From: Sinomicrobium soli
Lineage (GTDB): Bacteria; Bacteroidota; Bacteroidia; Flavobacteriales; Flavobacteriaceae
Reading direction: 5' to 3'
Assembly: GCF_003285545.1 (NCBI RefSeq)
Contig: NZ_QLNV01000009.1
Span: 1 to 64,000 of the forward strand
Length of the DNA stretch: 64,000 bases
A program made the position numbers and the translations under genes. Numbering within the stretch: position 1 is the first letter of the stretch; the number at the start of each line of letters is the position of its first letter. Below, piece after piece: positions 27,403-29,443 of this stretch. The notes below the pieces were generated by a model. It was not told the origin of the DNA, did not search any database, and was given only the letters and a program-made list of their open reading frames with translations.

Positions 27403-27619
27403 TCTGAGGTTCCTTTTCTGGCGAGACTTAAAGGGGGCAGGCGGCTATGCCTGTAGTCCTCCCGGACGTAGCTGGTAATATACTATGCTTAAATGGTGAC
27501 ACTGAGTGCCATCGTGGATCATGATGATACTACACGTTGAAACGCATACTAACCCGACGAGGTCGCTTTCTGGGTTTATCACGACGTATTTGAATTGTGA
27601 GGTGGAATACGATCAATCC
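27403..27619. other. gene-free stretch with several small hairpins, function unknown
   Basis: No convincing coding frame. Small inverted repeats follow one another: CAGGC/GCCTG near 27440-27455, CAC/GTG near 27502-27510 within ATGG...CCAT, and AACCC/GGGTT near 27550-27577. This could be the 3' end of the locus B transcript, a structured small RNA, or decayed sequence. I see no U-tract terminator directly after the TlpA gene. Confidence 0.25.
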
Positions 27620-27652
27620 TTGACTACTTTAGTATGATAAAAATAAGTTTTG
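27620..27652 (+). promoter_or_regulatory. promoter of the double-glycine peptide gene
   Basis: TTG at 27620-27622 is followed 21 nt later by TAAGTTTTG (27644-27652), a near match to the Bacteroidota TTG-N19-21-TAnnTTTG promoter (one extra base in the -7 element). The peptide start codon lies 25 nt downstream. Confidence 0.5.
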
Positions 27653-27677
27653 TTCACCTATTTAAAATCAGAAAATT

Positions 27678-27833
27678 ATGAATGTAGAGCATTTAAGTGT
27701 AGAAGAATTAAGTGTGAAGGAATCAACGAAGATCAATGGAGGCGGACTGAATTATACCAAAAAGGAACTGGATATGATCTTTCAAGTGGTTATTACTGAC
27801 GAGTTGACTAATTGGTTTGCGTACGCTCCTTGA
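27678..27833 (+). CDS. 51-residue peptide precursor with double-glycine leader (putative bacteriocin or signalling peptide)
   Basis: The frame ATG 27678 to TGA 27831-27833 encodes 51 residues. The first 22 read as a double-glycine leader: EHLSVEELSVKESTKINGG fits the LSxxEL...IxGG pattern recognised by peptidase-containing ABC exporters. Cleavage after GG would release a 29-residue core beginning GLNYTKKELDM and ending WFAYAP, with a hydrophobic centre (MIFQVVI), an aromatic tail and no cysteine. It has its own promoter and terminator, so it is a monocistronic unit. No exporter, modification enzyme or immunity gene is in the flanking 10 kb. Seen: the leader and the transcription signals. Inferred: export and activity. 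Confidence 0.65.
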   Translation: MNVEHLSVEELSVKESTKINGGGLNYTKKELDMIFQVVITDELTNWFAYAP

Positions 27834-27890
27834 AAGAGATTAGTACACTCCTTTTTAACGATAGACTAACGTTTTGGTACAATGATTCAG

Positions 27891-27918
27891 GTGCGGGTAT
27901 TGCCCGCACCTTTTTTTT
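27891..27918 (+). terminator. intrinsic terminator of the double-glycine peptide gene
   Basis: GTGCGGG (27891-27897) pairs with CCCGCAC (27903-27909) around a 5-nt loop and is followed by a run of eight T. It lies 57 nt after the peptide stop codon. Confidence 0.85.
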
Positions 27919-28057
27919 GAAATAGTTTTTGTTACTGATATGCTTTAAACTCCCGGACAACATTCCGGATTTATGTAAAAAATTCCTTTTTATAAACATC
28001 CAATACTTCTGATTGAATACCTGAACCCGGGCCGGTTTAGGCTGCCAATTCCATGAT

Positions 28058-28660
28058 ATGAGCTATAAAAATAAATTTATAGCCCATATAATACTATTGT
28101 TGGAGCCTGTCGGAAATGAGTATTTGCCAAAGAAATTTAGTCGTGTTATAAGTAAAAGCTTTCGCGATTCGACCGTGTTTATCCAGGGCGATACCTCCCG
28201 TCTTTCAGACCGGGAAGTGCTGGGGCTGCACCTGTTCCGTACTAAGGCAAGGTGTATCAATTGTCATAATTCGCCCCTGTTTTCCGATAACAAATTCCAC
28301 AATACCGGGCTTACCTATTACGGCCGTAAGTACGAAGACCTGGGCCGGTATGGGCATACGGGCAAAAAGGAGGATGTCGGTAAGTTCCGTACGGTTACTC
28401 TGCGGGAAGTTGCCCGTACCGCTCCCTATATGCACAACGGGATCTTCCCGCACCTCAGAGGGGTTATCAACCTGTACGACGCCGGAATGCCGCGTCCTGT
28501 ACGCAAACCGCATCAGCAACGCGATTCCCTTTTCCCCGAAACCTCACCCCTGCTGAAAAAACTGCACCTTACCGATGACGAAAAACTCTCATTGCGGGCC
28601 TTTCTCCTTACGCTTACGTCCCGGGCCAGGAGGGAAGCTCCCCCGGGACTGCCGAAATGA
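28058..28660 (+). pseudogene. truncated di-heme cytochrome c peroxidase (MauG/CcpA family), C-terminal part only
   Basis: About 200 codons remain. From residue about 43 the sequence is typical of the C-terminal half of bacterial cytochrome c peroxidases: LSDREVLGLHLFRTKARCINCHNSPLFSD, with one CxxCH heme site (CINCH), then NTGL, and the LREVARTAPYMHNG segment. The N-terminal heme domain and signal peptide are absent. The first 35 residues have no resemblance to the family and no export signal, so heme could not be attached in the periplasm. It is best read as a decayed gene with a fortuitous start. Confidence 0.7.
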
Positions 28661-28767: not shown

Positions 28768-29022
28768 ATGAATACTAAGTTGACCCTGACCATGGAAAAA
28801 GAGGTGATCAGAATTGCCAAGGAATATGCCAGAGATAAAGGACAGAGTCTTTCTGAAATGGTTGAAAATTACTTTAAACTGATTACCGTAAACAGAAGGA
28901 AAATTAAGCCTAAGCAGCTTTCGCCCAAGGTTCAAAAACTTCGGGGGATCATCAAAACCGGTGAAAATGTTGACTACAAAAAAATCTTAACCGAAGAATT
29001 GTCAAAAAAATATGGTGTTTAA
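28768..29022 (+). CDS. DUF6364-like antitoxin (ribbon-helix-helix type)
   Basis: This 84-residue protein starts with a basic/hydrophobic strand MNTKLTLTMEKEV followed by two helices (IRIAKEYARDKGQSLSEMVENYF), a ribbon-helix-helix pattern for DNA binding. The Lys-rich C-terminal part should wrap the toxin. Its last 11 bases overlap the start of the PIN-domain gene, which indicates translational coupling. The pair is the common Bacteroidota DUF6364/PIN arrangement. It should bind its own promoter, where AACACGT repeats are seen. Confidence 0.8.
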   Translation: MNTKLTLTMEKEVIRIAKEYARDKGQSLSEMVENYFKLITVNRRKIKPKQLSPKVQKLRGIIKTGENVDYKKILTEELSKKYGV

Positions 29023-29443
29023 ACTGTTTATAGACTCCGATGTTGTTATAGACTTTTTTACGGACAGGAAACCTCATGTCAACCCGGCAAGTGAGCTTTT
29101 TGAACTCAATGAAAAAGGAAGTGTTATTCTGTATTTATCTGCTATCAGCATTAATAATATCTATTATATCGCAAGGAGGTTTTTAGGGCATAAAAAAACG
29201 CTGGAAGTAGTGGAAACACTGACAGAAATAACGGAGATCGTAGGAATCACAAAAAAAGAGATTTTGCAGGCCCTGAAAAATGACTTTTCCGATTACGAAG
29301 ATTCCATACAGTATTCGTCGGCTTCAACCATTAAGGGACTGGATGCAATAATAACCAGGAACATCAGGGATTACAGGAAATCGGATATCGCGGTAATGAC
29401 TCCCCTCAGTTTTTTAAAGATGAAGGATAAGATCGATGGTTAA
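29012..29443 (+). CDS. PIN-domain toxin (VapC-like ribonuclease)
   Basis: This 143-residue protein has the PIN fold. The N-terminal acidic residues sit in LFIDSDVVIDFF (Asp8, Asp10, Asp14), a further Asp/Glu cluster sits in NDFSDYEDSIQYSSA, and the final conserved segment is GLDAIITRNIRDYRKS. These are the positions that bind Mg2+ in VapC-type RNases. The ATG at 29012 overlaps the antitoxin; a GTG at 29015 is an alternative. It is expected to cleave RNA and to be neutralised by the upstream antitoxin. Confidence 0.82.
   Translation: MVFKLFIDSDVVIDFFTDRKPHVNPASELFELNEKGSVILYLSAISINNIYYIARRFLGHKKTLEVVETLTEITEIVGITKKEILQALKNDFSDYEDSIQYSSASTIKGLDAIITRNIRDYRKSDIAVMTPLSFLKMKDKIDG

Follow-up and report, generated by a model that had tools for sequence, protein, structure and literature searches.

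The window, the 64-kb stretch of DNA analysed here, carries a short gene for a peptide with a double-glycine (GG) leader, preceded by three LytTR-type boxes and a promoter element and followed by an intrinsic terminator. Its neighbours are a TlpA gene on one side and a truncated MauG-like gene on the other, and the site is a point of rearrangement. The features of the locus are:

27495-27677, + strand: conserved upstream regulatory region; the BLAST match starts at 27495, and identical bases number 148 of 182 in the Parapedobacter tibetensis C5 copy and 113 of 165 in that of Sphingobacterium gobiense (190 nt before the ATG)
27541-27549, + strand: LytTR-type box 1, AACGCATAC, 21 bp before box 2
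27562-27570, + strand: LytTR-type box 2, GTCGCTTTC, following at the same 21-bp period and 63 bp ahead of the -7 element
27583-27591, + strand: LytTR-type box 3, GACGTATTT, its start 42 bp before the -7 element
27625-27632, + strand: -7 element, TACTTTAG, of the Bacteroidota TAnnTTTG type, at a position conserved in relatives
27678-27833, + strand: peptide gene, 51 aa, ATG to TGA
27678-27743, + strand: 22-residue double-glycine leader (leader HMM 28.8 bits; GG at residues 21-22)
27744-27830, + strand: 29-residue core, net charge -2, no cysteine
27865-27935, + strand: conserved 3' region including the terminator; a 71-base match, 91.5% identical to P. tibetensis C5, and 91% over 55 bp to Sinomicrobium weinanense
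27889-27911, + strand: intrinsic terminator, a stem-loop of 10 pairs (-18.8 kcal/mol) and then a T run
28058-28660, + strand: N-terminally truncated frame, what is left of a MauG/MbnH-like di-heme gene, context only; from residue 27-30 on it matches open frames of the genus (383-415 codons, 68-83%)

We conclude that the 51-codon gene is real. An HMM trained on 16 GG leaders of other genes, with the window gene excluded, ranked its leader top of the 1765 frames of the window at 28.8 bits (E 1e-7), a score that is flattered because several of the 16 leaders were originally found by their similarity to the window peptide. The second-best frame scored 3.6 bits, and the highest score across ten Markov-simulated windows was 10.4 bits. 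The frame, its GG leader and its cysteine-free core of 29 residues are as an earlier note on this DNA had described them, and the leader stands above chance in the simulations. No fitting family was found for the peptide in Pfam or PHROGs, and a scan of NCBIfam returned a single match, far under its cut-off; no bacteriocin model was among the NCBIfam matches.

The strong intrinsic terminator that had been proposed downstream is borne out by its predicted fold and by its conservation across species, the 55-bp match in S. weinanense lying just downstream of a different short GG-peptide gene. As a class, sites resembling terminators show no enrichment over the 6 kb that was scanned (7, against an expected 6.9). 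In P. tibetensis C5 and S. weinanense the gene ends at a stop that aligns with an in-frame TAA at 27867, 36 bp past the TGA of the window gene, so that the window core may be truncated. Further downstream, at 28768-29443, a gene for a DUF6364 protein is followed by one for a PIN-domain protein, which together look like a toxin-antitoxin pair. The earlier note had seen in the SusCD/TlpA neighbourhood a possible link to uptake. That this neighbourhood matters is not borne out by other copies: the one in S. gobiense, the one in S. weinanense and that of P. tibetensis C5 lie among other genes, judging their neighbours from the start of each frame. The exception is P. tibetensis C7, where frames that we read as SusC/SusD-like follow the exporter beside the peptide gene. 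The surroundings of most other copies thus lend SusCD-linked uptake no support.

A near-consensus promoter had been placed 25 nt before the ATG. A promoter is present, but its conserved -7 element lies 46-53 nt before the ATG; the nearer TAAGTTTTG-like element, probably the one the earlier note meant, is not conserved in the alignment as read by eye. In a flavobacterium, the -7 consensus for sigma-A is TAnnTTTG (PMC9723704), and letters identical to TACTTTAG precede the peptide gene on contig C18 of the window's own genome. The boxes are of 9 bp with spacers of 12 bp. PlnC/PlnD sites, as given in the accessible part of PMC2714321, are pairs of 9-bp repeats with 12 bp between them (consensus TACGTTAAT), and 12 bp separates most repeats of LytTR regulatory systems in the excerpted text of PMC6193735. 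The distance of 42 bp from the last box to the -7 element is found also in P. tibetensis C5 and C7 and in S. gobiense, and the C18 peptide promoter has a weak third box likewise 42 bp from its -7 element. Another way to view the conserved upstream DNA would be as a second coding gene, which we ruled out because an indel shifts the aligned frames. In three copies a palindrome, TTGTACAACAA, stands a few bases 3' of the -7 element (L118 9661-9671, L117 10157-10167 and L115 10115-10125); it is absent from the window, and in the C18 copy TTCTGTTTATACAGAA takes its place (L147 8501-8516).

We used a weight matrix, built from boxes chosen by eye in five copies, to examine how specific the combination of paired boxes and a -7 element is. 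Boxes 1 and 2 of the window, which are themselves in the matrix, score 16.4 bits, the best in the window, and a box pair of at least 13 bits occurs in the 64 kb only at the promoter of this peptide gene. At the kinase/regulator locus of P. tibetensis (L148), whose boxes were left out of the matrix, all four matches of at least 13 bits have a -7 element at 42-43 bp, a count to be read knowing that the 13-bit threshold and the -7 pattern were fixed after the first scans and that the spacing at two of these sites had been spotted by eye beforehand. One of the L148 sites precedes a gene that is followed by the regulator and kinase on the same strand. Shuffled sequences (100 shuffles) gave an average of 0.49 matches, and with a -7 element 0.00 (L148) and 0.01 (L147) per shuffle. 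At L147, the locus of the C18 peptide in the window's genome, the peptide promoter scores 13.8 bits with the -7 element 63 bp after the second box; it is outscored by a chance-like match of 14.3 bits that has no -7 element, and a further match of 13.1 bits has a -7-like TATTTTTA at 41 bp. Among the genes behind the box and -7 promoters of L148 (12126-19901) are those for a MORN-repeat protein and a possible Zn-ribbon protein (under the Pfam cut-off), together with frames of no assigned function.

Control DNA was scanned, as were other lags, after the rule had been set. None of the 8 box matches in 244,992 bp of controls, among them L067, where the peptide gene of S. weinanense lies, and two loci with exporters, has a -7 element, and neither does any of the 13 matches in 353,999 bp of the window's own genome (599 kb in total). 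Over lags of 15-29, matches with a -7 element occurred only at lag 21 (4 of 7). Plain autocorrelation was significant for S. gobiense (1 of 1000 shuffles), and not for the window (145 of 1000) or five other sequences (421-855 of 1000).

The earlier note had taken the gene to stand alone. Related peptide genes are present at four other loci in three species (S. weinanense, P. tibetensis and S. gobiense) and at one in the window's own genome, and it is the leader and frame that have these relatives. A protein search of six genomes of the genus gave no full-length relative of the core, the matches being other GG leaders or weak, and a protein scan of genome contigs likewise gave no full-length core relative. 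Matches with an E of at most 1 occur in 74 of 397 genomes of the family, and outside the window's own genome the strongest reaches E 0.002 over residues 1-27; of five loci with weak family matches read beyond the genus (L013, L016, L019, L025 and L034), four are GG peptides. A DNA pattern of the 3' region recovered seven loci. Three of these are relatives, in S. weinanense, P. tibetensis and S. gobiense; the other four (L077, L080, L081 and L082) were dropped because their upstream DNA showed no GG peptide. Searching the DNA of 399 Parapedobacter-family genomes brought in two tandem copies in genome G614 and a leader-region match adjoining a C39 exporter on P. tibetensis contig C7. Several other candidates were set aside: matches of only 25-36 bp in 15 of the 18 genomes of a DNA search, other GG-type peptides with likeness mainly in the leader in 7 of the 9 genomes of a peptide search, and a match in G351 that lies within a long helicase-like frame (read by eye). 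Viral contigs scanned by alignment and with two DNA patterns gave nothing, and the P. tibetensis element matched nothing among plasmids and phages. A transposase-like frame (L118 10072-10830), which we take to be of IS1595 type, starts some 160 bp past the end of the element in P. tibetensis C5.

Comparing the window with P. tibetensis C5 reveals a mosaic. Identity is 81% upstream and 93% in the 3' region (56 of 60 bases), against 62% in the leader-coding part (41 of 66), and an alignment of the cores is not meaningful (17 bases aligned). The cores of P. tibetensis C5, S. gobiense and S. weinanense form one group and those of the C18 and P. tibetensis C7 peptides another (for both, none of 5000 shuffles reaches the scores). 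The window core has no significant similarity to the other five (shuffle fractions 0.21-0.93). All six are acidic (net charge -1 to -3) and free of cysteine. In S. weinanense the peptide gene (L067 9164-9783) is divergent from an XRE-type regulator, with a dyad, GTATATTTGAGAATATAC, in the place of LytTR boxes, and reads as a member of the same peptide family under another control. Of the tandem copies in G614, one has an internal stop and the other lacks a GG site. Adjoining these damaged genes (L116 9430-10480) is a stop-containing remnant of the same kinase that accompanies the peptide elsewhere, as if they had been lost together.

The genome of the window (4.61 Mb, 43 contigs) holds a single C39-peptidase ABC exporter (E 2e-38), on contig C39 and thus off the window contig; export by a transporter elsewhere in the genome, as the earlier note supposed, is plausible. 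Two of the findings that the note would have taken as refutation, a lack of related leaders or frames and a lack of any C39 exporter, are thus contradicted. The exporter shares 62% identity with the one beside the P. tibetensis C7 peptide gene and 61% with the one beside the S. gobiense peptide gene. Its identity to eight other C39 exporters is 90% for S. weinanense C25, 59% for P. tibetensis L088 and below 39% for the remaining six. At least one C39 exporter is present in each of S. weinanense, P. tibetensis and S. gobiense. Upstream of the sole C39 exporter in the window's genome (L005 9041-10087) are genes for three GG-leader peptides, two of them with similar glycine-rich cores, and at the corresponding exporter site of S. 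weinanense six GG peptides are listed and a seventh was found by HMM.

In S. gobiense, genes for HlyD, the C39-ABC exporter, the GG peptide, the histidine kinase and the REC-LytTR regulator follow one another in this sequence. A full-length kinase and LytTR regulator pair is present on contig C18 of the window's genome, with PF06580 and PF04397 above cut-off; this kinase of 668 aa is 47% identical to the S. gobiense kinase (667 aa) over residues 15-663 of the latter. Divergent from the pair is a second GG-peptide gene (L147 8470-8315) with the same kind of boxes and the -7 element noted above. The pair thus adjoins the second peptide and not the window gene, and exporter, kinase pair and window gene lie on three different contigs. 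S. weinanense gives only a partial kinase match (residues 356-663) and has no LytTR boxes ahead of its peptide, and G614 likewise has a partial match and no full-length kinase.

The regulator and kinase of the window's genome are 81% and 62% identical to those of P. tibetensis. Between P. tibetensis and S. gobiense, which belong to the same family, the regulators are 63% identical and the kinases, full-length homologues, about 48-49%. The genus of the window's genome belongs to the Flavobacteriia, however, and Parapedobacter to the Sphingobacteriia. Regulator and kinase are thus closer between the window's genome and P. tibetensis than within the one family, and taken with the flank identities this points to horizontal transfer. 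All three kinases carry an N-terminal lipobox-like GC and, by hydropathy, one strong internal hydrophobic segment at 411-433 (that of P. tibetensis also passes at the N-terminal signal), for which reason we place the N-terminal domain, with some probability, in the periplasm. For this sensor a TPR fold is only suggested, and we rejected it as an assignment: the Pfam matches were under cut-off, a single-sequence AlphaFold model had a pLDDT of 54 and there was no match in the PDB.

Taken together, these results lead us to a reading that we consider likelier to be right than wrong, by some distance short of confidence: the window gene would belong, as an orphan, to a regulon of exported double-glycine peptides under LytTR two-component control, its core most likely an extracellular signal. 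The C18 response regulator would be phosphorylated by its partner kinase, bind the 9-bp boxes at 27541-27591 and activate the -7 promoter at 27625. The 51-residue precursor made from the activated gene would then be cleaved after the GG by the sole C39-peptidase ABC exporter, removing the 22-residue leader, and the 29-residue acidic core exported, most likely to act outside the cell as a signal read by the same or a related kinase. The parts that such a circuit would use can be read in the DNA, namely the leader, the boxes and their spacing, the -7 element and the terminator and, within the same genome, the exporter, kinase, regulator and second peptide. Regulator binding, cleavage, export, the topology of the kinase and signalling rather than killing are what we infer.

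Signalling is favoured by the peptides that adjoin a kinase in two genomes, by cores that are short, acidic and free of cysteine and that vary under constant control, and by the promoter with boxes that precedes the kinase genes of P. tibetensis. Against the regulon reading as a whole, S. weinanense keeps an intact-looking peptide with neither a full-length kinase nor boxes. On this evidence the window gene is probably a horizontally spread member of the regulon, and its role probably signalling. A wider proposal, which we put forward tentatively as a fair prospect but not yet a probable one, is that the Bacteroidota possess peptide-pheromone quorum sensing. Its components would be acidic peptides with GG leaders, a C39 exporter, a LytTR regulator and a histidine kinase whose N-terminal sensor resembles a lipoprotein, with an autoregulated regulon marked by boxes with a 21-bp period at a fixed 42-43 bp from the -7 element. 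The peptide genes would travel between classes as small units, each an exchangeable coding sequence enclosed by a conserved promoter and terminator. The type of signal could therefore be swapped without a change of control.

In the alternative that fares best, the signal would be the C18 peptide, and the same LytTR regulon would include the window gene as a bacteriocin-like output, on the pattern of the pln and blp loci. In regulons of Bacillota the GG peptide encoded next to the kinase typically serves as the signal, the remaining GG peptides being bacteriocins. Consistent with this, the genome has a separate kinase-adjacent peptide, the window core varies within conserved flanks, and among the genes with such promoters in P. 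tibetensis are that for the MORN-repeat protein and membrane- or lipoprotein-like frames that may have a role in immunity. The 29-residue core is acidic, however, with its net charge of -2; no immunity gene was recognised in the five neighbouring frames scanned; and the only peptide of S. gobiense that matches the model at E 0.01 or better adjoins the kinase. We therefore regard an antibacterial peptide as unlikely, though a serious contender; it shares the regulon and export steps with the preferred explanation, and our confidence in one is not exclusive of the other.

A further view is that of decay, in which a horizontally acquired gene with a diverged core, an early stop and an altered 5' region is losing its function. 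The stop that falls 36 bp before the position shared by two relatives, the loss of the palindrome that three relatives have, the position at a rearrangement point beside a truncated gene and the damage to the same genes in G614 all fit this view. Nevertheless, leader, start, boxes, -7 element and terminator are all present, and upstream and 3' regions are better kept than the leader-coding part relative to a copy from another class, so that we think decay improbable. That the peptide is a RiPP precursor, modified by the MauG-like neighbour or another enzyme, is most improbable in spite of the proximity of the MauG/MbnH-like frame (225 bp downstream) and of the one Trp and two Tyr in the core: the frame is truncated, for which reason MauG-dependent modification is ruled out, its genus relatives adjoin other genes, no MauG-like frame was noticed in listings beside the other peptide copies, and four further neighbouring frames scanned with Pfam yielded no intact modification enzyme.

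If the LytTR-regulon reading is true, the phylum gains a testable cell-to-cell signalling system of the Gram-positive peptide kind. It would supply the genes by name, candidate signals and a binding motif whose spacing follows a rule, and exported-peptide communication in Bacteroidota would therefore be directly testable. GG peptides with C39 exporters are known from Bacteroidales (PMC10352776 and PMC6671954, in the parts available), and homologues of some Gram-positive quorum-sensing proteins have been mapped to Bacteroidetes, the accessible text describing no such circuit (PMC8895600). Among the top-ranked entries and excerpts from searches of largely open-access literature, none describes a Bacteroidota circuit that combines a GG peptide with a LytTR two-component pair.

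Compared with bacteroidetocins, as described in the available sections of PMC6671954, the window peptide has a leader of 22 residues rather than 15-16 and no cysteine rather than at least two, and the adjacent membrane protein and, mostly, thiol oxidoreductase of those loci were not noticed here. The glycine-rich GG peptides of Sinomicrobium use the same exporter family, and two of their leaders in the window's genome align with that of the window peptide at 39-48% identity. Their cores, however, are glycine-rich and hydrophobic, unlike the window core, and their exporter locus has no box pair of at least 13 bits in 19.5 kb.

Peptide pheromone circuits are textbook in Gram-positive bacteria. 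In the ComCDE and BlpCHR systems of streptococci, a GG peptide, a C39 exporter, a histidine kinase and a LytTR regulator are joined by autoregulation; the circuit proposed here differs from these in phylum and in kinase architecture. The plantaricin regulon uses GG-leader peptides and a C39 exporter, as here, and its receptor kinase is of the polytopic kind typical of ComCDE/Pln systems. In this regulon, that of Lactobacillus plantarum C11, the LytTR-type regulators PlnC/PlnD act on a pair of 9-bp tandem repeats, spaced by 12 bp, that stand ahead of the promoter (PMC2714321, in part). Here, in contrast, the setting is Bacteroidota, with a TAnnTTTG-type -7 element and up to three boxes, cores that are acidic, parts that are scattered over the genome, and a kinase whose N-terminal domain is long and which has a single strong hydrophobic segment. 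The features held in common with ComCDE/Pln systems are the GG leader, a C39 exporter in the genome, the kinase and LytTR pair, and 9-bp repeats with a 12-bp spacer. Hydropathy did not indicate a polytopic receptor kinase in any of the three kinases, and for this reason we describe the circuit, by analogy, as one that appears to work like the Pln and Com systems rather than as a proven member of them.
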